In this document: one piece after another, positions 8,809 to 24,484 of the stretch | Layout of the letters: each line of letters begins with the position of its first letter | Position numbering within the stretch: position 1 is the first letter of the stretch | NCBI RefSeq assembly: GCF_026988555.1 | Contig: NZ_JALSLB010000058.1 | Location: 1 to 35,949, forward strand | Direction of reading: 5' to 3' | DNA: 35,949 nucleotides | From: Thermococcus sp. | GTDB taxonomy: Archaea > Methanobacteriota_B > Thermococci > Thermococcales > Thermococcaceae | Position numbers and translations under genes: made by a program | The notes under the pieces: generated by a model | Database searches by the model: none | Told to the model about the DNA's origin: nothing | The model's input: the letters and a program-made list of their open reading frames with translations, nothing else

Positions 8809-10202
8809 TGGAGGCCAAGAGTTACATTCATCTACTTGGCAGAACCCGAATACTGATAACCGAATGGTTGCCCTTCGGTGAGAACACCATCTTGGAGCTT
8901 TCGAGGAAGCTTGAAACGGAGAGTGGAGAAGGCACTCACAGTATTCTGACGGAGGTTATAGATCCCGAGCCGCAGGAAATGATATTCAGAACCGATTCCA
9001 TCCCTACGGTGATCCAGGTAATCAGGAGCGAGGAAAGTAGAAGTATAGACTTCAAGTGTGCCGTGGCATACTCGGAGACCAACGCGGATATACAGGAGGA
9101 ACATTTCGGTGTGCACGTTGATAACCTTGGCAGGATAATCTATGGCCTTGAACTTCTTGAGGCAGGTGGCTCGCGTGGCAGGTACAGCATTGACAACGTG
9201 TCCTCTGTTATCGCTGATCTGGTTCATGACAGTTCCAAAATGCTGAATACCGTAATATCGAAGTATCAGAAGCGGCTTCTTGAGCTTATCTACTTCAACG
9301 AACCCCTACATCGTGACAAGTTCTTTTTGGTCTTTGCGGAGGGGATGGAGCCGAACATGGATGATGACTCACTGATGCAGTTTTTACAGGGAGTTCTTGA
9401 ACTCAAACAGGTGTTATCTTCGATTAAAACGGTAAAGACCCTTGAAGATGGGACTCTTATGATACTCGGGGCCCAGGGTGTAATAGCCGTGGGTGAAAAT
9501 GCGTTTGAATACGAACAGGTTCTGCTCACGTACGCGTTCATGAAGAGCATAGAGAACAGCCTAGAAAACGCCCTTGCAAGGCTCTGGCGTTCGTGGGATA
9601 TGTCGGAGGAGCTCAAGGACAGTGTGTTCTCCAAGGAGGGTACAAACTCACTTAGGGAAATAAACAGACGAATAAGCGAGCTTCAGAGTGACGTCTCAAT
9701 AGTCACCTCAGTTTTCAGGTACATAAAGGATACTTTGAGTTCACTCAGTAGTGTGATATTGGAGCTTCGGGGGGATTCAGTGTACGATCTTCTTGGGATA
9801 GACGGGAGACTGGAGATCCTAAGAAGACGTGTGGAGGATGCTATACCCGTTGCCGAAACACTCTCGAGGGAGGTGGAGATACTGGTCAGCGTTGCGGATA
9901 CTCTCCTGGACAACTCCATCGTAAAGCTCATGGACGCTGTTGAAGAAAACACGAAGAGATACGTAGCTATTGGAGAGGCCCTTGAGCTGCTTGAGGTGGG
10001 TATATTTGGGGTTTATGCGGTTGAGCTTATCCACATAGCGCTTCAGTACAGTGGGATAGAGGAGGACCTGATGAGGTTCAGCTTTCTGGGTCTCTCATTG
10101 GCTTTCTGGACGATACTCACCATAGGACTCGGCGGCATAATCTTTGCGTGGTACCTGCTGAAGCTGACCAAGAAGAGGGTAATGGGGGAACACGGAAACT
10201 GA
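8805..10202 (+). CDS. Unknown membrane-anchored protein: soluble N-domain, coiled coil, two C-terminal TM segments
   Basis: A 465-residue protein with no recognised family. The first ~250 residues look like a mixed alpha/beta soluble domain. Residues about 260-395 are helical with heptad-like hydrophobic spacing (repeated LSSLSS, LEILRRRVEDA, LSREVEIL, VADTLL). Two hydrophobic segments follow, about 398-418 and 428-456, with a short basic tail (KLTKKR). This resembles the layout of CorA-like channels (soluble domain, long stalk helix, two TM helices), but the GMN selectivity motif is absent, so transport is not supported. The upstream gene overlaps it; either ATG 8805 or ATG 8808 may be used, with GAGGTGGT just before. 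A membrane-tethered sensor or scaffold working with the 184-residue protein is an inference. Confidence 0.7.
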   Translation: MMEAKSYIHLLGRTRILITEWLPFGENTILELSRKLETESGEGTHSILTEVIDPEPQEMIFRTDSIPTVIQVIRSEESRSIDFKCAVAYSETNADIQEEHFGVHVDNLGRIIYGLELLEAGGSRGRYSIDNVSSVIADLVHDSSKMLNTVISKYQKRLLELIYFNEPLHRDKFFLVFAEGMEPNMDDDSLMQFLQGVLELKQVLSSIKTVKTLEDGTLMILGAQGVIAVGENAFEYEQVLLTYAFMKSIENSLENALARLWRSWDMSEELKDSVFSKEGTNSLREINRRISELQSDVSIVTSVFRYIKDTLSSLSSVILELRGDSVYDLLGIDGRLEILRRRVEDAIPVAETLSREVEILVSVADTLLDNSIVKLMDAVEENTKRYVAIGEALELLEVGIFGVYAVELIHIALQYSGIEEDLMRFSFLGLSLAFWTILTIGLGGIIFAWYLLKLTKKRVMGEHGN

Positions 10203-10282
10203 AAAGCCATCATACCGGGAAGCGCTATTCAAACACCTTAAAGATCAAAATGGTATTGTTCTCGTTGACAAACCTCGAAAAG

Positions 10283-10290
10283 TTTTTAAA
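10283..10290 (+). promoter_or_regulatory. TATA box for the candidate ncRNA
   Basis: TTTTTAAA centred near 10287 predicts transcription from about 10312. That is the first base of a perfect 10-base inverted repeat, not a start codon; the next start codon with a ribosome binding site is 160 bases further on. Confidence 0.55.
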
Positions 10291-10311
10291 GCGATGCATC
10301 GTTAGGGGCAT

Positions 10312-10421
10312 CGGTGGTGCCTATCGTCCACCGTAACGCCGATTTCGACCCGTGAATTTCACGCGTTCCGCGCTTCTCGGTTATCCTCCACTCCGGCACC
10401 ACCGGCGTTGCTAAGATTTTT
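10312..10421 (+). ncRNA. Candidate structured small RNA upstream of valS
   Basis: The 5' end CGGTGGTGCC (10312-10321) pairs perfectly with GGCACCACCG (10395-10404), closing a domain of about 93 bases. Inside, GCCGA (10339-10343) can pair with TCGGT (10377-10381), and CGTGA (10351-10355) with TCACG (10359-10363). A TATA box lies about 25 bases before the stem, and a run of five T (10417-10421) follows it. No open frame with a ribosome binding site fits here. The layout suits a stable RNA with its own promoter and terminator. I looked for H/ACA and C/D box features (ACA after the stem, RTGATGA/CTGA) and found none convincing, so the class is open. A valS leader element is the main alternative. 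Confidence 0.5.
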
Positions 10422-10424
10422 AAG
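10417..10424 (+). promoter_or_regulatory. TATA box of valS
   Basis: TTTTTAAG centred near 10420 predicts a start near 10446 and a 29-base leader ending in GGTGAT (10465-10470) before the ATG at 10475. The same T run could terminate the upstream RNA. Confidence 0.55.
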
Positions 10425-10474
10425 CCGCCCTTCTGAGGGTAACCCATCTTCAAAAAACCGAAAGGGTGATGCCC

Positions 10475-13147
10475 ATGCTTCCCAAGACCTACGAGCCCGA
10501 GAAAATTGAACCGAAATGGCAGAAGTTCTGGCTTGATGAGAAAATCTACAAGTACGAGCTCGACGAGAAGAGGCCGAGCTACGCTATAGACACACCTCCC
10601 CCGTTCACGAGCGGAACGCTCCACCTCGGTCATGTTTTGAGCCACACCTGGATCGACATCATAGCGCGCTACAAGAGGATGACCGGCTACAACGTGCTCT
10701 TCCCTCAGGGCTTCGACAACCACGGCCTCCCGACCGAGCTCAAGGTGGAGAAGGAGTTCGGGATAAGTAAGGATCAGCCTGAGAAGTTCCTCCAGAAGTG
10801 CGTCGAGTGGACCTGGCAGGCCATCGAGGCGATGAGAAACCAGTTCATCAGGATAGGTTATTCCGCCGACTGGGGCCTGGAGTACCACACGATGGACGAC
10901 TGGTACAGGGCTGCCGTTCAGAAGTCCCTCCTTGAGTTCTACGAGAAGGGCATGCTCTACCGCGACAAGCACCCTGTCTACTGGTGCCCGCGCTGCAGGA
11001 CGAGCCTTGCCAAGGCCGAAGTCGGCTACGTCGAGGAGGACGGCTACCTCTACTACATCAAACTCCCCTTAGCTGACGGCTCCGGCCACGTCCCCATAGC
11101 CACCACAAGGCCCGAGCTGATGCCGGCTTGTGTCGCTGTGTTCGTTCACCCGGACGACGAGCGCTACAAAGACGTGGTAGGTAAGAAGGTAAAGCTCTCG
11201 ATATTTGAGAGGGAAGTGCCGGTCATAGCCGATGAGGACGTTGACCCAGAATTCGGAACAGGTGCGGTCTACAACTGTACCTACGGTGACGAGCAGGACG
11301 TCGTCTGGCAGAAGCGCTACAACCTGCCGGTTATCATCGCCATCAACGAGGACGGCACGATGAACGAAAACGCCGGGCCCTACGCCGGCCTCAAGGCGGA
11401 AGAGGTGCGCGAGAGAATAGCGGAAGACCTCGAAAAGATGGGACTGCTCTACGACAGGAAGAAGGTCCACCACCGCGTGCTGAGGCACACCGAGAGGAGC
11501 TCCTGTATGGCGCCCATCGAGCTGCTCCCCAAGACCCAGTGGTTCATCAGGGTGAAGGACTTCACGGACGAGATAGTGAAGGTCGCGGAGGAGATCAACT
11601 GGTACCCCGAGGACATGTTCTTGAGGCTTAAGGACTGGGCCGAGAGCATGGACTGGGACTGGGTCATCAGCAGACAGAGGGTCTTTGGAACGACGCTCCC
11701 GTTCTGGGTCTGCAAGAACGGCCACGTGGTTCCGGCGAGGGAAGAAGACCTTCCGGTTGACCCGCGCTTTGATAAACCTCCGGTCGAGAAGTGCCCGGTC
11801 TGCGGTGCAGAGCTTGAGCCCGTAACTGACGTCCTCGACTGCTGGATTGACTCAAGCATAACCCCGCTCATCATAACCCGGTGGCACGAGGCCATGAAGG
11901 GCGACGAAGAGGCCAAGCGCTGGTTCGAGCACAACTTCCCAACGGCTCTAAGGCCGCAGGGAACGGACATCATAAGGACGTGGGCCTTCTACACAATATT
12001 CAGAACCCACGTGCTCACCGGCGAGAAACCTTGGAATGACGTCCTCATCAACGGAATGGTCGCCGGCCCGGACGGCAGGAAGATGAGCAAGAGCTACGGC
12101 AACGTCGTTGCACCGGACGAGGTCATACCGAAGTACGGCGCCGATGCGCTCCGCCTCTGGACCGCCCTCGCTCCGCCCGGAGAGGACCACCCGTTCAAGT
12201 GGGAGACCGTCGACTACAACTACAGGTTTTTGCAGAAGGTCTGGAACATCTACCGCTTCGCCGAGCGTCATCTGGTAGATTTTGACCCGAGCAGCGCTCC
12301 GGAGGAGCTTGAGCCGATCGACCGCTGGATACTCAGCAGACTTCACAGGCTGATAAAGTTCGCCACCGAGGAGATGGAGCGCTACCGCTTCAACCTGCTC
12401 ACCAGAGAGCTGATGACCTTCGTCTGGCACGAGGTCGCTGATGACTACATCGAGATGATCAAGTACCGCCTCTACGGCGACGACGAGGAGAGCAAGCTGA
12501 AGGCGAAAGCGGCACTCTACGAGCTGCTCTACAACGTGATGCTCCTCCTCGCACCGTTAGCCCCGCACATAACCGAGGAGCTCTACCAGGAGATGTTCAA
12601 GAGGCACGTTGGTGCCAAGAGCGTGCACCTCCTTGAGTGGCCGAAGTACAACGAGGGCAGGATAAGCGAGGAGGCTGAGAGGCTCGGGGAGCTCGCCCGC
12701 GAGATAGTCGGTGTCATGAGGCGCTACAAGAACAGCCACGGCCTGGCTCTCAACGCCAAGCTCAAGCACGTGGCCATCTACGCCACCGAGGGCTATGAGG
12801 CCCTGAAGGCCATTGAGAAGGACATCGCAGGAACCATGAACATCGAGAGGCTGGAAATAATCCAGGGCGAGCCGGAACTTGAGGAGCGCATCATTGAGAT
12901 AAAGCCCAACTTCAGGACTGTTGGACCGAGATACGGCAAGCTCGTGCCAAAGATCACCTCCTACCTCAAGGAGAACGCGGAAGCAGTTGCCAAGGCACTC
13001 AAGGAGACCGGAAAGGTTGAGTTTGAGGTTGAAGGCCAGACGGTCGAGCTGAGCAAGGATGACATCGTGCTCAGGAAGGCCGTGTTCAGCGAGGGCGAAG
13101 AGGTCGAGACGGCAGTCGTTTGGGATGCCGTTGTGGTGTTCTTCTGA
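10475..13147 (+). CDS. valS: Valyl-tRNA synthetase
   Basis: An 890-residue class Ia aminoacyl-tRNA synthetase that charges tRNA-Val with valine. The HIGH signature appears as HLGH at residues 50-53 in PPPFTSGTLHLGHV, the KMSKS loop near residue 536 in GRKMSKSYGN, and the editing (CP1) domain with ATTRPELMPACVAVFVHP near residues 208-225. Two zinc-ribbon-like cysteine pairs occur, CPRC near residue 170 and CPVC near residue 437. The tail from about 610 holds the anticodon-binding domain (DRWILSRLHRLI) and the last ~100 residues are an archaeal-type C-terminal extension. The frame also has a GTG at 10466 and an ATG at 10469, but these lie within the GGTGAT ribosome binding site, so ATG 10475 is the start. 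Confidence 0.97.
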   Translation: MLPKTYEPEKIEPKWQKFWLDEKIYKYELDEKRPSYAIDTPPPFTSGTLHLGHVLSHTWIDIIARYKRMTGYNVLFPQGFDNHGLPTELKVEKEFGISKDQPEKFLQKCVEWTWQAIEAMRNQFIRIGYSADWGLEYHTMDDWYRAAVQKSLLEFYEKGMLYRDKHPVYWCPRCRTSLAKAEVGYVEEDGYLYYIKLPLADGSGHVPIATTRPELMPACVAVFVHPDDERYKDVVGKKVKLSIFEREVPVIADEDVDPEFGTGAVYNCTYGDEQDVVWQKRYNLPVIIAINEDGTMNENAGPYAGLKAEEVRERIAEDLEKMGLLYDRKKVHHRVLRHTERSSCMAPIELLPKTQWFIRVKDFTDEIVKVAEEINWYPEDMFLRLKDWAESMDWDWVISRQRVFGTTLPFWVCKNGHVVPAREEDLPVDPRFDKPPVEKCPVCGAELEPVTDVLDCWIDSSITPLIITRWHEAMKGDEEAKRWFEHNFPTALRPQGTDIIRTWAFYTIFRTHVLTGEKPWNDVLINGMVAGPDGRKMSKSYGNVVAPDEVIPKYGADALRLWTALAPPGEDHPFKWETVDYNYRFLQKVWNIYRFAERHLVDFDPSSAPEELEPIDRWILSRLHRLIKFATEEMERYRFNLLTRELMTFVWHEVADDYIEMIKYRLYGDDEESKLKAKAALYELLYNVMLLLAPLAPHITEELYQEMFKRHVGAKSVHLLEWPKYNEGRISEEAERLGELAREIVGVMRRYKNSHGLALNAKLKHVAIYATEGYEALKAIEKDIAGTMNIERLEIIQGEPELEERIIEIKPNFRTVGPRYGKLVPKITSYLKENAEAVAKALKETGKVEFEVEGQTVELSKDDIVLRKAVFSEGEEVETAVVWDAVVVFF

Positions 13148-13192
13148 GTTAACCTTTTACACCCCTACTCCATTTTCTTCTGGGTGGTGAAG

Positions 13193-13363
13193 TTGGGGGA
13201 GGATGAACTCAGAAAGAGAATCGAGGAGATGGAAGCACTGCTTGAACTGATGGGCAGAAAGTACGCGGAGATGAAACGGGACAGAGAAGTCCTTAGGAGG
13301 GCAATATCAGAACTCAAAGGGGAGAACGCCAAATTAAAGGGTGAGGCCGATGGAAGAGCTTAG
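13193..13363 (+). CDS. Small coiled-coil protein, 56 residues, TTG start
   Basis: A short open frame of 56 codons almost wholly made of charged helix with heptad spacing (ELRKRIEEMEALLELM, then KRDREVLRRAISELKGEN). It starts at TTG 13193, preceded by GGTGGT at 13183-13188; an in-frame GTG at 13187 lies within that site. It overlaps the next small gene by 14 bases. No family is recognised. The good ribosome binding site, the overlap and the similar sequence style of the next protein (both contain ELRKR) support a real gene. The pair could form a heteromeric coiled coil, which is inference. Confidence 0.6.
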   Translation: MGEDELRKRIEEMEALLELMGRKYAEMKRDREVLRRAISELKGENAKLKGEADGRA

Positions 13364-13577
13364 AAAGAGGCTCCTGGAACTCTCCAAACAGGAAGCATCG
13401 CTCAACTTTAAGATGTACGAGCTTTTTGAAGAAAATCGGGTTCTGGCCATAAAACTAGCCGGTTACATCGCAGAAAACCGGCTCCTCGGTGGCAACTGGG
13501 ACAGTGAAGAGGTCAAGAGCGTTATGGATCGATACCTCATCGGGAAAACGGACAGGGGTGGGGAACCGCCGGAATGA
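13350..13577 (+). CDS. Small helical protein, 75 residues, paired with the preceding gene
   Basis: A 75-residue protein beginning MEELRKRLLELSKQEASLNFKM, amphipathic and helical up to about residue 40, then a second helix (LAGYIAENRLLGGNW) and a charged tail ending DRGGEPPE. The ATG at 13350 has GGTGAG about five bases upstream; an upstream in-frame GTG at 13341 is part of that site. It overlaps the 56-residue frame, and both probably come from the valS transcript or from a weak promoter in the 45 bases after valS. Function unknown. Confidence 0.6.
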   Translation: MEELRKRLLELSKQEASLNFKMYELFEENRVLAIKLAGYIAENRLLGGNWDSEEVKSVMDRYLIGKTDRGGEPPE

Positions 13578-13608
13578 TTTCAATGAAGAACATCTCTGTT
13601 CACAAAAC

Positions 13609-13618
13609 GTTTAAAAAG
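13609..13618 (+). promoter_or_regulatory. TATA box of the Ehr-like operon
   Basis: GTTTAAAAAG predicts a transcript start near 13640, about 84 bases before the first gene. This leader is much longer than the 10-30 bases implied at most other promoters in the window. Confidence 0.55.
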
Positions 13619-13639
13619 CATTGACGTTACCAACCCGCG

Positions 13640-13723
13640 GGCAAAATTCCGGGCGAAGGCGTCCGCCCTAATCGCCCCCCCGGGGCTAATGACGCCTGTT
13701 CTCCAATCCAGGAGGTGACGCCA
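13640..13723 (+). promoter_or_regulatory. GC-rich structured leader of the Ehr-like operon
   Basis: Three inverted repeats lie in this leader. GGGCG (13651-13655) can pair with CGCCC (13664-13668). AGGCGTC (13657-13663) can pair with GACGCCT (13691-13697), enclosing a third hairpin GCCCC (13674-13678)/GGGGC (13682-13686). The first two cannot easily form together because the second uses the loop of the first. The ribosome binding site GGAGGTGA (13711-13718) lies just past the structure. Whether the folds regulate anything is unknown. Confidence 0.35.
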
Positions 13724-14683
13724 TTGAACCCGGAAGGAAGGATGATAATAGGTGCAGTCCAGGTTATAGTAGTGCTCATGCTCTCTCCCCTGATGGTGGG
13801 GATACTGAAGAAAATCGAGGCAAGAATAGAGTCGAGGAAAGGAATAAGCATATTCCAGCCCTACTACGATTTAGCCAAATTCTTTAGAAAGGAGACTCTC
13901 ATTCCTGAAGGCGTTGGGCCTTTCTTTATCATGGCTCCATTCATAGCGTTCGGGGCCATGCTGACCCTTCCCTGGATGCTTCCCATAGTCGGCAACTTTC
14001 CGAGCTGGCTTGCGCCGACGGTTGACTTCTTTGGCGGAACGTTCATCTTCGGCCTGGCCGCGATGGTATCAATCCTTGCGACCGAGAGAACAGGAAGCTA
14101 CTACACGGGTATAGGGTCAACGAGGGCGATTAACTTTGGCGCCTTTGCCGAGCCCGTCCTGATAATGGTATTCTTCGGTGTTGCAATCCTAACGGGGACC
14201 AACAACCCGTTCCTTATGAACCACAGGGTAACCGCTGGGAGCTGGTACCTGTCACCAACCCACGTACTCATCACGGCGGCCTTCTTTATGCTCCTGCTCT
14301 TTGACACCGGGAAACTGCCCATCGAATTCCACGGGAGCAACGAACTCGGAATGCTCGACCAGGGAAAGGGCCTCGAGTACACCGGCCCGCTCTACGCCAT
14401 CAACTCGTGGGCAGGCTACATGAATTCCTTCATACTGATGGCGGTCTTCCTCAACGTCTTCGCCGTCCCCTGGGGGCTGGCAACGAGCGCGGGTCTGGTC
14501 GAGGTCGTCAAGGGGATAGTGGCCCTCTTTGTCAAGATGCTCGGCCTTATACTGGCTTTCGTTGTCGTTGAGGAGACCCTGGCGAAGATAAGGCTCTTCC
14601 GCATAATCGACTATCTCTCGGCGAGCTTCCTCCTTGCCATAATGGGGGTCATCAGCTTCCTTCTTGGGGGTGTGGTTCCATGA
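13724..14683 (+). CDS. NuoH/HyfC-like membrane subunit of an Ehr-like complex
   Basis: A 319-residue polytopic protein with about eight hydrophobic segments, related to complex I NuoH and hydrogenase HyfC/EchB. It is the membrane anchor joining the Fe-S arm to the ion-pumping arm. Typical segments are the cytoplasmic FQPYYDLAKFFRKE near residues 42-55 and DTGKLPIEFHGSNEL near 188-202 with the conserved acidic residues, followed by LEYTGPLYAINSW near 211-223. I place the start at TTG 13724, with GGAGGTGA six bases upstream; GTG 13715 lies inside that site. It overlaps the next gene by four bases. Confidence 0.88.
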   Translation: MNPEGRMIIGAVQVIVVLMLSPLMVGILKKIEARIESRKGISIFQPYYDLAKFFRKETLIPEGVGPFFIMAPFIAFGAMLTLPWMLPIVGNFPSWLAPTVDFFGGTFIFGLAAMVSILATERTGSYYTGIGSTRAINFGAFAEPVLIMVFFGVAILTGTNNPFLMNHRVTAGSWYLSPTHVLITAAFFMLLLFDTGKLPIEFHGSNELGMLDQGKGLEYTGPLYAINSWAGYMNSFILMAVFLNVFAVPWGLATSAGLVEVVKGIVALFVKMLGLILAFVVVEETLAKIRLFRIIDYLSASFLLAIMGVISFLLGGVVP

Positions 14684-15306
14684 TGAACATCGTAACGGAA
14701 GTGACCAGTCTCATCGGTGTCACTGTACTGCTTGTAGCGTTCCTCCTGCTGACTGAGTCCTACATGCACTCCCTTATTGACCTGATTGCCTTTCAATCCA
14801 TCCTCATCGGGGTCATCATTGGTCTCGTGGGCTGGCAGGAGAGGATAGCGGAGCTCATGATCCTTGCCGGGATAACCATCGTCTTCCGGGCGCTCATAAT
14901 CCCGTGGATTCTTCAGCGGGACATCAGAAACGAGAGGATATGGCGCAACAGGGAGATAAAGACGACCCACCATGCAATAGTCGTTGGTTTGACTGTCGCG
15001 GTCCTGGCGTATTTCCTCTACGTGCCGGTCTACAAGGTAACGGGCGACTGGGATGGGGTAATCCCTTTTGTTCTGCTCTTCCTCAGCATGCTGATTATAG
15101 TAGCGAGAAGGAACGCACTGGCCCAGGTCATAGGCTACGTCAGTGAGGAGAACGCCCTGCTGTACCTGGCGGTCATGCTGACTCCGATGCCCATGATACT
15201 GGAGTTTGGTATCCTGCTTGACATGATCGCCTTCGTTCTCTTGGCAGTCGTTCTGGGTGCGGAGAAACGTTACGGCCCTGTGGAAGTTGAGGAGCTGGTG
15301 GGGTGA
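14680..15306 (+). CDS. HyfE-like membrane subunit of an Ehr-like complex
   Basis: A 208-residue protein with about six hydrophobic segments, resembling HyfE, which is related to NuoK fused to a further membrane part. The N-terminal half has ESYMHSLIDLIAFQSILIG near residues 26-44 with a membrane-embedded acidic residue. A basic loop (RDIRNERIWRNREIKTTHH) near 74-92 separates two halves. It overlaps the stop of the preceding gene as ATGATGA, so ATG 14680 or 14683 may be used. It should form part of the ion-translocating arm. Confidence 0.8.
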   Translation: MMNIVTEVTSLIGVTVLLVAFLLLTESYMHSLIDLIAFQSILIGVIIGLVGWQERIAELMILAGITIVFRALIIPWILQRDIRNERIWRNREIKTTHHAIVVGLTVAVLAYFLYVPVYKVTGDWDGVIPFVLLFLSMLIIVARRNALAQVIGYVSEENALLYLAVMLTPMPMILEFGILLDMIAFVLLAVVLGAEKRYGPVEVEELVG

Positions 15307-15310
15307 TACC

Positions 15311-16669
15311 ATGGATGCGGTGTTCTATCTCTTGCTACTCCCCCTCATAGCGGTGTTCGTTTCAATTCCCTCTGAGAGATTGGGGAGGCTTCTAACCCCT
15401 GCACTTGCCTTTGCAACCGCTGCACTGGCTGCTTCTATGCTGTGGGGCGGCTACACCACATCGACCCACAGCTTCTACGTCGATGAGTACTCGCTAGTCA
15501 CGGCCAACATCATTGCGTGGGTCTACCTCTTCGCCTCGCTCGCCTCGCTCTACTACACGGAGCGCGTTGAGAGGCCGTTCTTTAACCTCCGCTACTACTG
15601 GAGCTTGCTCTCGCTCTTCGCCCTCAGCATGCTCTTCACTGCGGTGGTAGCGAACCTTGGCTGGATGTGGATCGGGCTTGAGGCAACCACTATAGTCAGC
15701 GCCCTCCTCGTAATAACCGACGGTAAGAGGCGGAACGTTGAGGGTGCGTGGCGCTACATGATAATCGCCTCCGCGGGACTTGGAATAGCCTTTCTGTCGG
15801 TCGTCCTTGCCTACAGCTCCGCCGGAACGCTCGACGTGAGGCAGCTGACCTTCACCTCAAAAGAGGGTATCCTCGTGTCCCTCCTTGCACTGATCGGCTT
15901 CGGCACAAAGGTCGGCCTGTTCCCCATGCACAGCTGGTTGCCAGACGCCCACGGGAGTGCACCGTCCCCCGTCAGCGCAATGCTCTCCGGAACGCTCCTT
16001 CCTACAGCTTTGCTGGTTTACTATAGAATTTTCAGCGCGGCAGGAATTAACGATGCTCCCGCTAGGGTAACACTCCTTGTTGGGCTCTCGACCATCATCG
16101 TTGCCTCAATCCTCATGGCCTCACAGCGCTTCGTGAAGAGGCTTCTGGCCTACTCCAGCATGGATATGATGGGCGTCGCGACCACGGGGATTGCACTGAG
16201 CTACTACCATCCGGCACTGCTTAAGCTTGTCTTTCTCCTCATAGCCGTCCACGCCTTTTCAAAGGGCGCACTCTTCATCTCAACGGGGAGCATTGTGAGG
16301 GCCTATGGAAGCCATGAAATCGGGGAAATAACCGGCCTGCTGAACTCCACCAAACTTACCGGGTATTCCTTTGTTCTTTCGGCACTTTCCGTAACCGGCA
16401 CGCCTCCGTTTGGAACGTTCATGGCCGAGCTGGGGATCGTCGGTGTTGCCCTTTCGAGAAGTTACTGGTGGGGGCTCCTCATCGGAACCGGCCTGCTGCT
16501 GTCGTTTCTGGCCTTGAACTGGCATGCCGCAAGGATGGCGTTTGGGGGGGCTGAGAAAGTGGAGATCCCGTTGGGAGAGGAGGCAATACCCTTTGCGATG
16601 ACCCTCGTGGCCCTTGGGATAAGCCTCTACGCATGGTATATCACCATCACAGGGGGTCTGATAATATGA
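15311..16669 (+). CDS. HyfF/NuoN-like antiporter subunit of an Ehr-like complex
   Basis: A 452-residue membrane protein of the NuoL/M/N-MrpA/D antiporter family. It carries the functional charges of that family: a glutamate in WIGLEATTIVSALL near residues 121-134 and a lysine in GFGTKVGLFPMHSWLPDAHG near 199-218. The HGSAPSPVSAML stretch completes the usual signature. These charges mean it probably pumps H+ or Na+. The start is ATG 15311 with GGGTGAT four bases upstream; the open frame extends to 15257 but overlaps the previous gene heavily. Its stop overlaps the next gene as ATGA. Confidence 0.9.
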   Translation: MDAVFYLLLLPLIAVFVSIPSERLGRLLTPALAFATAALAASMLWGGYTTSTHSFYVDEYSLVTANIIAWVYLFASLASLYYTERVERPFFNLRYYWSLLSLFALSMLFTAVVANLGWMWIGLEATTIVSALLVITDGKRRNVEGAWRYMIIASAGLGIAFLSVVLAYSSAGTLDVRQLTFTSKEGILVSLLALIGFGTKVGLFPMHSWLPDAHGSAPSPVSAMLSGTLLPTALLVYYRIFSAAGINDAPARVTLLVGLSTIIVASILMASQRFVKRLLAYSSMDMMGVATTGIALSYYHPALLKLVFLLIAVHAFSKGALFISTGSIVRAYGSHEIGEITGLLNSTKLTGYSFVLSALSVTGTPPFGTFMAELGIVGVALSRSYWWGLLIGTGLLLSFLALNWHAARMAFGGAEKVEIPLGEEAIPFAMTLVALGISLYAWYITITGGLII

Positions 16670-17871
16670 AGGTACTCTCAGCCGTTTTCAGGAGGGACGG
16701 AAGGTACCTGACGGTGTGGGTTGAATATGAAACCGGAAAAGCTGAGGTAATCCCCACGGATTCACTTCCCGACAGGAAAATCGCCCCGGCCCTCATCGGT
16801 GAGACGGCATCTTACGTAAGAATACCGGCGGGAACGAACGCAGTTCCGTTGACGTACGGACCAGCTGCGGGCGGTCTCGGTCAGGCCGGGGCCTTTGAGT
16901 TGCTCACATATGGAGAGAGAATAGTCGCCATAAGGCCTGTCTACGGCTACAAGAGGCGCGGGATTGAGGAGGAGATGCTCAACCGCCCGGTTGGGGAGTC
17001 CCTCGTGGTTCTTGAGAGGGCAGCAGGGAACTTCGCAATGGCCTACACCTACGCTTTCCTCCGCGCCTTGGAGGAAAACCCCGATGAAAAGGTTTGGGGG
17101 GTTAGGAAGGTTCTCCTTGAGCTGGAGAGGCTTTATAACCACTTCAACGTCATCCACAAACTGGCTGGGGCGGCATCACAGAAAGTCGCCACCATGCACT
17201 TCCACGCTCTGGAAGAGGATGTGCTGAGGGTTTTCTCAAGGCTCGTCGGTCACCGCTACGGATTTGGTGCTAACGGACCCGGTGAGGTCAGAATACTCGA
17301 CCGGAACGTGATTGAAAGGGTCAATGACATCAAACGGGAGTTCCTTGGCCTTCAGGAGGAACTCCTCGAGAGCAAGATATTCATCGACCGTCTTCACAAC
17401 ACATGCAGGCTCACCAGGGAAGACGTCATCGAGCTCGACGCCGTTGGAATAGCCGCGAGGGGTTCTGGGGTCCCGAGGGATGTTAGGGCCTTCGATCGGT
17501 TCTACTCCTATGAGCCGATTACTTGCCGTGAAGGGGATGCCCTCGCGAGGATGATGGTCCGCATGGAGGAGATAGAGAAGTCCTTTGAGATAATTGAGTC
17601 CGTTGACGTGAGGTCTGTGAAGTCCGATCCATCGGTTAAAGATGGCCTGAACCTTGGTCTTTCGGAGGCCGCACACGGCGACGTTCTCACGCTGGTGGAA
17701 GCTGAAGGTGGAAAGGTGAGATGGATTGGGCTCAGGGGGGCGTCGCGCATCAACTACATCGCCTTCGCAAGGGGCATAACCGGAAACATTTTTACGGACT
17801 TTCCTTTTGGCCTTGAGAGCTTCGGTTTGAACTTCGCCGACGCGGATCTCTGGCAGGGGGGTGAGGATTGA
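16666..17871 (+). CDS. Hydrogenase/NuoCD-like large subunit lacking all [NiFe] cysteines
   Basis: A 401-residue homolog of the group 4 hydrogenase large subunit and NuoD. Recognisable segments: PLTYGPAAGGLGQAGAFEL near 61-79, GYKRRGIEEEML near 94-105 and LELERLYNHFNVIHKLAG near 151-168. At the place of the first nickel motif (RICGIC in hydrogenases) the sequence is RAAGNF at 118-123. The C-terminal DPCxxC is replaced by ADADLW near 391-396. The only cysteines are 247 and 287, so a [NiFe] centre cannot be bound. The N-terminal ~90 residues are a reduced NuoC-like part. This matches energy-converting hydrogenase-related (Ehr) complexes, so the electron acceptor is unknown. It is coupled to both neighbours by overlaps. 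Confidence 0.87.
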   Translation: MKVLSAVFRRDGRYLTVWVEYETGKAEVIPTDSLPDRKIAPALIGETASYVRIPAGTNAVPLTYGPAAGGLGQAGAFELLTYGERIVAIRPVYGYKRRGIEEEMLNRPVGESLVVLERAAGNFAMAYTYAFLRALEENPDEKVWGVRKVLLELERLYNHFNVIHKLAGAASQKVATMHFHALEEDVLRVFSRLVGHRYGFGANGPGEVRILDRNVIERVNDIKREFLGLQEELLESKIFIDRLHNTCRLTREDVIELDAVGIAARGSGVPRDVRAFDRFYSYEPITCREGDALARMMVRMEEIEKSFEIIESVDVRSVKSDPSVKDGLNLGLSEAAHGDVLTLVEAEGGKVRWIGLRGASRINYIAFARGITGNIFTDFPFGLESFGLNFADADLWQGGED

Positions 17872-18476
17872 TGTGGATACTCAGGGGGCTTAGAAAGGGC
17901 GTGATGACAAGTGGGTACCCCGGGAAGGTCAGTGACGATGAGCTGGCACCGGATTTTCCTCTTAAGGAACCGGAGGAGTGTCCCTTTGGGGCTTTGGAGA
18001 ACGGGAAGTTCGACATCAAGAGATGCCTGAACTGCCGCCTCTGCAACGCCCCCTTGGGCAGGAAGCTTGACGTTGATGAGATACTGAACCCGATGAACTT
18101 CAAGAATTCCCTCCATGTTTTCTTCCTTGACGTCGGGACATGCCATGCATGCAACCGTGAGGTGGCCCAGCTGAGCAGTCCCTACTACGACGTTCACAGG
18201 CTGGGGATATTCTTTACACCAACACCAAAGCACGCGGATGTTCTCCTTGTCGCGGGCTGTCCAACGGATGACATGATCCCGGTTCTACGGGAGGCCTACG
18301 AACTGATGCCGGAGCCGAAACGCGTCCTTGCTCTTGGAGCGTGTGCAAATGGGAGTCTCTGCGGGAGAGACACAGGGGAGTTCGTCCCGGTTGATGGGTA
18401 CGTGGCCGGCTGTCCACCCGCGCCGGTTCAGATAATACGGGCACTCCTTAAGATCTCAGGGAGGGATGTGGAATGA
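17871..18476 (+). CDS. NuoB-like small subunit fused to an N-terminal [4Fe-4S] ferredoxin-like segment
   Basis: A 201-residue protein. Residues 85-195 are NuoB/HyfI-like and keep the four ligands of the N2-type [4Fe-4S] cluster: C91 and C94 (DVGTCHACNREV), C158 (GACANG) and C181 (VAGCPPAP). Upstream, C37 (CPFGAL) and C52, C55, C58 (RCLNCRLC) form a pattern that would bind one more [4Fe-4S] cluster, as half of a ferredoxin does. Related complexes usually have a separate ferredoxin-like subunit, so here that role may be reduced and fused. The start ATG 17871 shares a base with the previous TGA and has GGGGGTGAGG upstream. Confidence 0.88.
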   Translation: MWILRGLRKGVMTSGYPGKVSDDELAPDFPLKEPEECPFGALENGKFDIKRCLNCRLCNAPLGRKLDVDEILNPMNFKNSLHVFFLDVGTCHACNREVAQLSSPYYDVHRLGIFFTPTPKHADVLLVAGCPTDDMIPVLREAYELMPEPKRVLALGACANGSLCGRDTGEFVPVDGYVAGCPPAPVQIIRALLKISGRDVE

Positions 18477-20290
18477 ACCCTTACTACCTCATAACCATTG
18501 GTTTCGTGCTTTCTTCCCTCATTGCAGTGGGCTCACGCAGGGCCTCGTACTGGCTGAGCGCCGTCCTTTCAGCAACGCTGCTTGGACTTCTAGTGTTTCA
18601 GCCTGGCTCTCTCGATGAAACGGCACGTTACTTCATGCTGATTTCGTCAATAGTCTGGCTGGCGGCTTCTCTATTCAGCGTGAGCTACGACGACCACTAC
18701 CCGAGGCTCCTCGCCGGAGCGTTCTCGATGACGATGGCGGGGATGATGGTCATCCTGCTTGCGAAGGGAGCGGTTGGTTTCCTGATAGGTTGGGAAGTCA
18801 TGACCGTGGCGAGCTACCTCGGGATAACCGCGAAGGATAGGGAGGGTAAAGGTGCCTACAAGTTCCTTGCCTTCGGCGAGCTGAGCGCCCTTTTAATTCT
18901 GGCGGGCTTCGGTCTGCTCTCGATGGGGAGCGGCTCAACGAGTTTCTCCGCGTGGAAACCCTCACAGGTTTGGGACGTGGCCTTTTTCCTCGCGGCCCTT
19001 GGATTCGCCGTGAAGATGGCGGTATTTCCGTTTCACGTCTGGCTCCCAGACGCCCACGGTAACGCGCCGGCCAACCTCTCGGCCCAGCTAAGTGCAGTGC
19101 TCACCCTCATGGGGCTCTACGGGATCGTTAAGCTTCTCCTCATCGGGAGGCCTGCCGACTGGATCGGTGCGTTCTTCCTTCTCTTTGGAGGGATAACCGC
19201 TGTACTCGGTGCCGCGTACGCGGCCGGAACGGAGCACGTCAAGAGACTCCCGGGTTACAGCACGGTGGAGAACGATGGCATACTACTCGCCCTCTTCGGC
19301 GGAACCGTGGTGGCCCTCAACCACGGCGTAATGGACCTGGCCTCGTTCACTTTCCTATCCCTGCTGTTCTTCGCCTTCGCACACAGCGTTGCAAAAGGAC
19401 TGCTCTTTCTCATAGCAGGAAGGCTTGAGAACGGCACCGGACGCTTCCCCGAGGTCGTCCGTGGAAGACTCACCACGGTTGGCGTTGTAGCGGGCTATGC
19501 CTCCGCCCTCAGTCTTGCGGGAATCCCACCATTCCCCGGGTTCCTTGGGGAGTGGCTCGGCATAGAGAGCCTCCTGCAGAGCTTTAAAATACCTGATCCC
19601 GGGTTCAAGGTACTTATGATGCTCGTCGGATCCCTTGCGGCCCTGACGGCCGGGATAGCGGGCGTTGCCATGAGCAAGATGGTAACCCACGGCGCTCAGA
19701 GAGCAGGTGAAAAGAAAGGTCATCCCGTTGAGGACGCCGGCTACGCCTTCTTAACCCTGGTTCTCTTCACGGTCGGGATATTTCCGGGCCTCATTTTCCG
19801 TCTCATCAACGTGCCGATGACTGCCCTGACAGGGGAGAAGGCGACGAGTTTTCTGGGAGGTGCACTGGGCATACGGAACGGCTTCCTCGTGGTTGCCAAA
19901 GGATTCGGGGGGATCTCACCGACGTACCTTGCCACACTAGTCTTCCTCTTCGCCCTCGCTGGTTACATCACCGTCAGGGTCTTCAGGGGCCGGAACATCA
20001 GACGCGTCAGGGCCTGGAGTGGTGGCCTGAGCAACCCCGAGTACCCGCCGATAGCACACTCGGCAATACTCCTCATCACGGAAAGCTGGCTCTACGGGAC
20101 GAAGGAAGAAAACGGAAAACTTCACTGGCGTGAGAAGGTCAACCAGGCCTACAACTGGATGAGCAGGGGCTATCTGAGCTTCTCCGAATGGTTCAGGCAC
20201 AGCCTTATGAAGGGCTCTGACAGTGTTTACGTCGCCTACATACTGCTTGCGGTTATGGTGGGGTTGCTTTACCTTCTCCACGCCCTCTGA
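18473..20290 (+). CDS. HyfB/NuoL-like antiporter subunit of an Ehr-like complex
   Basis: A 605-residue membrane protein, the second antiporter-like subunit of the operon. The signature charges are a glutamate in GWEVMTVASYLGI near residues 104-116 and a lysine in GFAVKMAVFPFHVWLPDAHG near 178-197, followed by HGNAPANLSAQLSAVL. About fourteen hydrophobic segments are visible, and a hydrophilic C-terminal part (residues 505-580, with TESWLYGTKEENGKLHW) precedes a final membrane helix, as in other HyfB proteins. The ATG overlaps the small-subunit stop. It ends the operon; a T-rich stretch follows at 20292-20304 before the convergent trm10. Confidence 0.9.
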   Translation: MNPYYLITIGFVLSSLIAVGSRRASYWLSAVLSATLLGLLVFQPGSLDETARYFMLISSIVWLAASLFSVSYDDHYPRLLAGAFSMTMAGMMVILLAKGAVGFLIGWEVMTVASYLGITAKDREGKGAYKFLAFGELSALLILAGFGLLSMGSGSTSFSAWKPSQVWDVAFFLAALGFAVKMAVFPFHVWLPDAHGNAPANLSAQLSAVLTLMGLYGIVKLLLIGRPADWIGAFFLLFGGITAVLGAAYAAGTEHVKRLPGYSTVENDGILLALFGGTVVALNHGVMDLASFTFLSLLFFAFAHSVAKGLLFLIAGRLENGTGRFPEVVRGRLTTVGVVAGYASALSLAGIPPFPGFLGEWLGIESLLQSFKIPDPGFKVLMMLVGSLAALTAGIAGVAMSKMVTHGAQRAGEKKGHPVEDAGYAFLTLVLFTVGIFPGLIFRLINVPMTALTGEKATSFLGGALGIRNGFLVVAKGFGGISPTYLATLVFLFALAGYITVRVFRGRNIRRVRAWSGGLSNPEYPPIAHSAILLITESWLYGTKEENGKLHWREKVNQAYNWMSRGYLSFSEWFRHSLMKGSDSVYVAYILLAVMVGLLYLLHAL

Positions 20291-20315: not shown

Positions 20316-21434
20316 TCAGCAGTTGTAGCAGAGCATGGCCGCTTTCTTGAGGAGTATCACCCGATAGACCTTCCCGTGCATGATCCGTGGGCTGGATATT
20401 TTGTTTAGGTGATGGATTCTCCTCTGCTCAAGGGCTATCAGGTTCAGTTCACGGAGAACCTTTGTGAAGTCCTCGGGGCGAATCTTGAGCCAGCCTGAGT
20501 AGTAGTCGAAGAGCTCCTTCTCCACGACGCGGTAAAGCTTTCCGTCTACCCTATAACGTATTGCATGCTTTGGCAGTTCCTTTCTCAGGCGCCAGCGGGC
20601 GTGTCGAGGTTCCTGAAACTCGTAAACCGCCTCGTCCATGGGCTTCCCTTCCACCATCATGGTCAGGACTATTCCGAGGATGCGGTTTATTCTGTCAGGA
20701 ACACCGATGACGTCTCCTTTCAGAGTGATCTTTCTCCTGTGAACCTGTATCCCTGCCCCCTCCATCTCCTCGGCGATCTTGGGGGTGGTCTTCCTCTTTG
20801 TTCCACCTGTGTCAACGATACCCCCGATTATGAAGGCTTTGGCATTAAAATCTTCCCTGCTCAGAACCTTCTCGGCCCAGGGATCTAGGAGGATCGCTTC
20901 GTTTATGCCGTTCTCTTTCAGGAACTCAGCGGTTGGTCCCTCGTGAACGGTTATTCTCTCCAGAGGTCCATGGAACATCCGCCTGAACTCATCGTTGGCC
21001 CAGGTAACGGTCAGTTCCCTTCCAGTGAGGTACCTCCTGAGAACGGAGTAACTCTGGTTTACCTGAAGGCAGAGCCGGCCCTTCTCCCTCTGACTGTGCC
21101 TGTCCCAGTGATAGAGGTCGATTATGAAGTAGGGCCACTCTGGGAGCTTTGAGAGGAGTCCCTCGGGGCTCAGAACCATCTCGAATTTATCCTTCATGCA
21201 TAAAGGGGCATATGCGTAGTATGAGCCTTCAACCCGATTTCCTTCCAGGTCCCACGCCACGAGGGTCCTCTCCGGGACGCGGAATACCGCTCCCTTGCCG
21301 TTGATGATCTCAAGGGCCATCTCCTGCAGCTTATCCATCGGTTTTCGAAATCTCTTCGAAAGTGCCCCAAGGCTCTCTACACCCATATCTCTCAGTGCTT
21401 CCCTGAAAACATCCCTGAGTGTCTTCATGGCCAT
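20316..21434 (-). CDS. trm10: Trm10, tRNA (purine-9 N1)-methyltransferase
   Basis: A 372-residue SPOUT methyltransferase of the archaeal Trm10 family, which makes m1G9 and/or m1A9 in tRNA; the Thermococcus kodakarensis enzyme does both. The SAM-binding knot region is visible: FIIGGIVDTGGTKRKTT near residues 202-218, then VHRRKITLKGDVIGVPDRINRIL near 233-255, listed by position. The N-terminal ~90 residues and the C-terminal ~90 (KELPKHAIRYRVDGKLYRVV) are the archaeal extensions. ATG 21434 is probably a leaderless start: CCTTTTAACC on the minus strand is centred about 26 bases upstream. It lies alone between a convergent operon and a divergent gene. Confidence 0.9.
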   Translation of the reverse strand: MAMKTLRDVFREALRDMGVESLGALSKRFRKPMDKLQEMALEIINGKGAVFRVPERTLVAWDLEGNRVEGSYYAYAPLCMKDKFEMVLSPEGLLSKLPEWPYFIIDLYHWDRHSQREKGRLCLQVNQSYSVLRRYLTGRELTVTWANDEFRRMFHGPLERITVHEGPTAEFLKENGINEAILLDPWAEKVLSREDFNAKAFIIGGIVDTGGTKRKTTPKIAEEMEGAGIQVHRRKITLKGDVIGVPDRINRILGIVLTMMVEGKPMDEAVYEFQEPRHARWRLRKELPKHAIRYRVDGKLYRVVEKELFDYYSGWLKIRPEDFTKVLRELNLIALEQRRIHHLNKISSPRIMHGKVYRVILLKKAAMLCYNC

Positions 21435-24406: not shown

Positions 24407-24484
24407 TGGTGCCCCGGCCGGGATTTGAACCCGGGGCGCGGGCTCGAAAGGCCCGCATGTTTGACCGGGCTACACCACCGGGGC
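24407..24484 (-). tRNA. tRNA-Glu, anticodon UUC, CCA encoded
   Basis: Read on the minus strand, the acceptor stem GCCCCGG (24478-24484) pairs with CCGGGGC at the 3' end, followed by the discriminator A and encoded CCA (24407-24409). The anticodon arm is CGGGC-CTTTCGA-GCCCG, giving anticodon TTC, which reads GAA and GAG. The T arm has the invariant GGTTCAAATCC. A TATA box (24507-24516) is 27 bases upstream and a T5 run lies downstream. No second copy of the tRNA 3' end was seen in the window, so there is no sign of an element integrated here. Confidence 0.97.

Follow-up and report, generated by a model that had tools for sequence, protein, structure and literature searches.

A 35,949-nucleotide stretch of Thermococcus sp. 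DNA (contig NZ_JALSLB010000058.1 of assembly GCF_026988555.1, hereafter the window) carries six overlapping genes on its forward strand, at 13724–20290, for a complex resembling the group 4 hydrogenases, and a fluoride riboswitch directly precedes them. Judged from its sequences, this complex is an Ehr complex and not a hydrogenase with a strain-specific loss of cysteines, and its operon is very probably controlled by fluoride. We assign a probability of roughly 0.6 to the reading that the complex is a fluoride-induced ion pump, which would restore the gradient drained by the entry of hydrogen fluoride (HF) and the export of F−. As such, it probably helps the cell to survive fluoride.

The riboswitch leader and the distribution of the operon

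A search of positions 13100–13760 and then of the whole window with all Rfam models returned two matches above cut-off for the window, the fluoride riboswitch aptamer RF01734 and one tRNA gene (Table 1). The aptamer ends 18 bases short of the probable TTG start of the first gene, with the Shine-Dalgarno sequence in between. This arrangement recurs across the genus: a riboswitch stands directly before ehr H in all 15 loci that retain upstream sequence, at the same short distance and with the same start region, and 13 of the 15 score above cut-off, those of genomes G034 and G047 falling just below it (33.9 and 32.5 bits). Fourteen of these leaders have a TTTAAAA run ahead of the riboswitch; the exception is that of G034, whose contig starts nearby. 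All six subunits reported in the preliminary description of this DNA are present behind the leader: two antiporter-like, one NuoH-like and one HyfE-like subunit together with the large and small subunits.

Fluoride binding would presumably let the ehr message be translated. The pseudoknot strand of the aptamer, GACGCC at 13691–13696, has a second copy that the Shine-Dalgarno sequence runs into; two copies are present in 15/15 ehr leaders, as compared with one in 7/7 leaders of the other riboswitch operon of the genus, and the second could compete with the pseudoknot strand as a decoy. Nested RNA folding did not separate ON from OFF states, with the Shine-Dalgarno sequence mostly paired in both, so the decoy is put forward as a possible switch. 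Pair counts are uninformative for P1 and the pseudoknot, two helices without any variation; P3 alone varies, two of its four pairs being changed on both sides.

The ehr locus occurs in 16 of 61 Thermococcus genomes. Among the 115 genomes of the phylum that were scanned, 15 Thermococcus genomes have two RF01734 matches and the other matching members of the genus have one each. The contigs of G038, G039 and G054 end within the first two ehr genes (that of G039 just past the start of H), and in G052 the contig starts inside L, so this genome, with its upstream sequence absent, falls outside the 15. Orthologs of the large subunit were found in 13 of the 115 genomes, all Thermococcus, and in no other genus of the phylum among them. 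In many ehr-free genomes (G002, G022 and G025, for example) ileS and trm10, the genes that flank the operon in the window, are convergent and about 53 bases apart. G037 (contig C136) and G047 (C2) likewise have the ileS–trm10 pair without ehr, with gaps of 420 and 908 bases, and carry ehr on another contig; the operon is thus found at no fewer than two sites, which makes a past move probable.

The large subunit and kinship with Ehr

In an alignment of 38 large subunits with E. coli HycE as the reference, the four columns of Ni-Fe cysteines hold A, F, N and D in the window's L and A/T/V/G, F, N and D across Thermococcus ehr L, with zero cysteine in 9/9 rows. The same columns read CCCC in 5/5 bacterial hydrogenase rows and in 6/6 full-length hydrogenase-type paralogues from Thermococcus. 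In Thermococcus ehr L, in addition, the histidine of GPxH (GPVH) is replaced by alanine, and the arginine of EAPRG, which in hydrogenases overhangs the metal site, by histidine (His348, counted from the opening of the reading frame at 16633). By its residues the subunit cannot hold a Ni-Fe site, and with none of the four ligands left the complex would make no H2.

All six ehr genes are nevertheless under purifying selection, with ratios of nonsynonymous to synonymous substitution rates (dN/dS) of 0.022–0.158 in 27 gene comparisons from five genome pairs, and the C-terminal residues around the lost site hardly change even where overall identity falls to 56%; the complex thus has a function that has been kept. 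A decaying hydrogenase remnant could find support in G055, where a TAG at a tryptophan codon near the C-terminus leaves L about six residues shorter (L043 10035–11222), but both the dN/dS values and the conserved pocket stretch contradict it and make it hardly credible. An AlphaFold2 model of L (mean predicted local distance difference test score of 49.9, from 7 sequences) was too poor to support any argument about the cavity and was dropped.

A tree of 37 large subunits separates all Ehr sequences, the window's L among them, from hydrogenases, Mbx and complex I by a branch with support of 100/100; it carries a long-branch warning, leaves out the partial row L058, and takes as Ehr references a set of plasmid loci that are Ehr-like in ligand loss and gene set, without canonical Geobacter Ehr. 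Hydrogenases also keep to their own side, at 100/99 and 100/100, in two reduced versions of the tree. The preliminary description fares well on these points: RAAGNF and ADADLW stand in L as it quoted them for the loss of all four ligands, the selected function other than H2 chemistry that it proposed is supported, the kinship with Ehr is recovered, and a placement inside the active hydrogenases, with cysteines lost in one strain, is not what the tree returned.

Comparison with known systems points the same way. Ehr (ehrABCDLS), in the excerpts of PMC6688271, PMC7894505 and PMC6349859 that describe it, has the same six kinds of subunit and no Ni-Fe ligands, and falls on the same side of the tree; the window's operon differs from it in its fluoride riboswitch control, its H-E-F-L-S-B order and the fusion of S to a ferredoxin-like domain, and Thermococcus L differs also in replacing the GPVH histidine and the EAPRG arginine. 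With E. coli formate hydrogenlyase (FHL) and hydrogenase-4 the operon shares its subunit plan, in that E, F and B match the HyfE, HyfF and HyfB models, the nearest PDB entry to H is FHL subunit 4, and L finds its best solved-structure matches in 6cfw, a membrane-bound hydrogenase, and 7z0s, the E. coli formate hydrogenlyase. The E. coli systems have the CCCC metal site and hycH, hycI and hypA nearby, none of which occurs here. The genome of the window (G000; 1.97 Mb in 68 contigs, 99.84% complete) encodes several further complexes of the same superfamily, among them the paralogue L051. We take L051 to be Mbx-like, Mbx/MBS being a Thermococcales relative whose Ni-Fe site is incomplete. Two of the four cysteines remain in L051 (CECD), and in the tree it sides with complex I; the window's L keeps none. 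In complex I, the quinone site comprises the HPxxH loop and a tyrosine of NuoD; where NuoD reads GPQHPATHG and RLDYLG, the window's L has GPAAGG and RAAGNF instead.

Riboswitch-linked relatives in bacteria

Among plasmid sequences, the best match of L is in Mycobacterium branderi (34%, E 5e-31), and the best matches of H are in Burkholderia, Caballeronia and M. branderi (37–41%, the next being at most 33%). M. branderi, B. cenocepacia and B. multivorans share the H-E-F-L-S-B order and the fused S of Thermococcus, the order in Caballeronia being read as H-E-F-L-S, and the L subunits of Mycobacterium branderi, Burkholderia and Caballeronia are likewise without Ni-Fe cysteines. A riboswitch lies before H in B. 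cenocepacia (L097 4086–4156), B. multivorans (L148 5076–5146) and Caballeronia (L149 4886–4956), and a further one precedes the M. branderi operon, separated from it by a NUDIX gene (L088 4776–4849); where these bacterial riboswitch-linked loci are annotated, the neighbours are DUF190, CrcB, enolase, inorganic diphosphatase or MutS genes. Other Ehr loci on plasmids begin with B (in Rhodococcus, with S) and have a short S, with the exception of Allomeiothermus, in which S is fused. Rfam searches found no riboswitch in 11 such loci (L090–L096, L103, L104, L150 and L151, of which L095 and L150 are copies within one Allomeiothermus plasmid) and none in five hydrogenase loci (L098, L099, L100, L102 and L105). 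The Rhodococcus locus, being without a riboswitch, was classed with the other Ehr in the trees.

The fluoride-linked complexes likely share descent, mostly because of H, gene order, the fused S and the riboswitch. They form a group in the large-subunit tree (99/98, with 94/91 for the other Ehr), again when the Burkholderiales are removed and M. branderi is kept (98/97), and in a tree of the membrane subunits H, E, F and B, at 100/100 both with M. branderi (17 rows) and without it (14 rows). By BLAST, H is clearly nearer to the fluoride-linked relatives, L favours M. branderi and not Burkholderia, and F and S are near ties. An Alicyclobacillus plasmid has a lone Ehr-like L behind a fluoride riboswitch (L089 9330–9390; region 9330–11032); searches turned up no further subunit next to it, nor an F subunit anywhere on the plasmid. 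An Anaerolineae match (L087) was rejected as a relative, being ordinary complex I.

These loci bear on an existing annotation. Weinberg et al. in 2010 placed crcB-motif RNAs before ‘formate hydrogen lyase’ genes (excerpt of PMC2864571), and a passage of PMC11139923 repeats the link and interprets it as formate oxidation; what is described there is, like that of the window, a Hyf/Hyc-like operon behind a crcB-motif RNA. In contrast to that label, the loci here are without Ni-Fe ligands and the annotated ones are without an adjoining formate dehydrogenase gene. Since the ligands are lost in every inspected locus, the ‘formate hydrogen lyase’ of fluoride regulons would be an Ehr unable to make H2. 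In the portions of the open-licence literature covered, no link between Ehr and fluoride appears beyond the ‘formate hydrogen lyase’ statements of PMC2864571, PMC11139923 and PMC8004769, and the excerpts of PMC6349859, PMC7304191, PMC10284858, PMC6688271 and PMC7894505 present Ehr without an established function. If our reading is true, fluoride is the first concrete stimulus for one branch of a complex that has had no agreed function since its naming; the accepted reading, hard to reconcile with an aerobic life, does not hold for this branch; and Thermococcus, for which genetic tools exist, becomes a place to find out what Ehr pumps. It also points to one fluoride-responsive complex common to archaea, actinobacteria and betaproteobacteria.

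An ordinary Ehr of energy metabolism (sulfur, formate, CO or peptides) with an incidental riboswitch, as the preliminary description implied, would agree with how common riboswitch-free Ehr is and with the link to formate drawn for Geobacter in a passage of PMC7894505. We regard it as very unlikely, given a riboswitch at 15/15 loci that is found again in bacterial relatives of the same gene order, and given that the genes adjoining the operon (ileS, a 78-aa open reading frame (ORF) and trm10) include no formate or CO dehydrogenase and no maturation gene. That description was right about a non-H2 function and Ehr kinship, but it missed the riboswitch and left the electron donor and acceptor blank. 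With the riboswitch in view, fluoride becomes the stimulus to expect, and none of the growth tests proposed there (sulfur, formate, CO and peptides) would apply it.

A candidate ion pump, its rivals and the second riboswitch operon

According to a passage of PMC11139923, HF makes the cytoplasm more acid as it enters and reduces the proton-motive force, export by Fluc uses the membrane potential, and Na+/H+ antiporters are the commonest riboswitch-linked genes after exporters. HF diffusing in would free H+, and F− leaving through a channel would spend membrane potential, so that each cycle of HF in and F− out would carry one H+ inward; fluoride would act as an uncoupler, and an added pump under fluoride fits this action. 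In the proposed sequence of events, fluoride would bind the leader RNA and the ehr message would be translated, after which reduced ferredoxin would load electrons onto the N-terminal cluster of S; by way of the N2-like cluster these would reach an acceptor within the remodelled pocket, while the membrane arm would export H+ (or Na+). This extra pumping, available only when fluoride is sensed, would restore pH and potential. The donor, the pumped ion and the presence of an acceptor in the pocket are all inferred here.

Ligands for two clusters of such a path are retained in Thermococcus. In S, Cys38, Cys53, Cys56 and Cys59 correspond to one ferredoxin-type [4Fe-4S] cluster (CP...CxxCxxC, the ligands of a second cluster being missing from this ferredoxin-like N-terminus), and Cys92, Cys95, Cys159 and Cys182 are the ligands of the N2-like cluster; all eight are invariant in 7/7 Thermococcus rows. 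Burkholderia S has a double ferredoxin-type set and N2, ligands for three clusters in all. The Thermococcus, Burkholderia and M. branderi rows all retain the glutamates and lysines of the antiporter modules, which we take to be the functionally important residues, and selection maintains both modules as well as the NuoH-like coupling subunit. Both the N2 ligands and the pump charges of the two antiporter-like subunits are thus as intact as first described, and redox drive in the Thermococcus complex is plausible.

Several results weigh against a fluoride-induced, redox-driven pump. S of M. branderi (L088 10024–10818) keeps one ferredoxin-type set and has lost all four N2 ligands, as has S of Allomeiothermus, from an Ehr without a riboswitch; electron flow to the pocket is therefore unneeded in at least one relative, and redox drive in the M. 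branderi complex is doubtful. It is here that the pump model is weakest. No electron acceptor was found. On the side of fluoride sensing and shared descent, the U of the conserved GAUGG is replaced by A (GAAGG) in 9 of the 15 ehr riboswitches, that of the window among them, the large-subunit tree without M. branderi and Alicyclobacillus fails to recover the fluoride group (14% of bootstrap trees), and BLAST places E and B closer to some riboswitch-free Ehr.

The N2 loss in M. branderi is also the main support for a fluoride-induced, non-redox exchanger of Mrp-like character (Na+/H+ or F−/H+) with a structural iron-sulfur arm, since the pump residues of that complex are kept all the same. Such an exchanger would suit the neighbours of the operon, among which inspection found no electron-donor gene, the frequency of antiporters as riboswitch targets (in the passage of PMC11139923) and the lack of CrcB in the window's genome. 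The eight invariant cluster cysteines of Thermococcus S and the three clusters of Burkholderia tell against it, and we consider it rather unlikely. The single-cluster docking domain and N2 ligands could serve instead in a fluoride-induced redox valve that disposes of surplus reduced ferredoxin when enolase is blocked, with pumping secondary, and enolase inhibition is given as a main fluoride effect in PMC11139923. This seems improbable with no acceptor found and with several other superfamily complexes in the genome that could serve equally. The pump remains our preferred reading.

It is distinctly unlikely that the complex itself, by means of its former hydrogenase framework and Mrp-like arm, drives export of F− or a compensating ion and is able to replace Fluc/CrcB. 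This idea arises because the window's genome has ehr and the other riboswitch operon and no CrcB, either by PF02537 or with a CrcB protein query (best E 0.15, not credible), whereas CrcB is encoded by 47 of 49 good Thermococcus genomes (54 of all 61). In G050, the other good genome without CrcB, a contig ends 1.2 kb from the riboswitch of that second operon, and the CrcB gene may therefore have escaped assembly. CrcB is present in 13/16 ehr carriers and 41/45 non-carriers; ehr is thus no general replacement, and the CrcB-free genome of the window is a lead from one genome only. A CLC exporter was rejected as the substitute: this genome has one CLC protein, but 57 of 61 genomes of the genus have at least one.

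Of 37 Thermococcales riboswitch loci examined, 3 head ehr and 34, from 31 distinct sites (11 of them in other genera), head a prenyltransferase-like gene (PF00432), behind which members of the genus have a DUF6062 gene and two coiled-coil genes, with CrcB further down in several genomes. T. kodakarensis has a related layout, with a crcB RNA before TK0513, the neighbour of the crcB gene TK0514 (excerpt of PMC4247193). In the window's genome this operon encodes a prenyltransferase-toroid protein and a DUF6062 protein behind its riboswitch (L141 5175–6761), no CrcB follows, and a 253-aa membrane-protein ORF takes its place (L141 1–7000).

Table 1 Positions of the operon, its leader and other features in the window
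Feature	Positions	Strand	Details
ileS	10466–13147		flanks the operon, before it
78-aa ORF	13341–13577	+	possible member of the fluoride locus
TATA-like element TTTAAAAA	13610–13617	+	putative; probable operon promoter
Fluoride riboswitch aptamer RF01734	13643–13705	+	41.0 bits, cut-off 34, E 3.4e-8 for the whole window
Shine-Dalgarno GGAGGTG	13711–13717	+	runs into the second GACGCC copy, 13717–13722
H subunit, NuoH/HyfC-like	13724–14683	+	PF00146, E 3.2e-31; presumed TTG start after Shine-Dalgarno
E subunit, HyfE-like membrane protein	14680–15306	+	HyfE model match
F subunit, HyfF/NuoN-like antiporter module	15311–16669	+	PF00361, E 5.2e-42; ORF opens at 15257, presumed ATG start at 15311
L subunit, EhrL-like large subunit, NuoCD-like	16666–17871	+	short NuoC-like N-terminus; 0/4 Ni-Fe cysteines; ORF opens at 16633, presumed ATG start at 16666
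S subunit, EhrS-like	17868–18476	+	single-cluster ferredoxin-like domain fused to NuoB
B subunit, HyfB/NuoL-like antiporter module	18473–20290	+	HyfB model match
trm10	20316–21434	−	flanks the operon, after it
tRNA gene	24410–24484	−	Rfam search

The 78-aa ORF upstream of the leader shows 42–49% local identity to 144-aa proteins of G000 and G034 (E 2e-5 and 4e-6) and 45% identity to a 76-aa ORF of G010 (E 3e-11). Over part of its length it resembles a coiled-coil protein from the other fluoride riboswitch operon, a likeness that forms a further tie between the two riboswitch loci.

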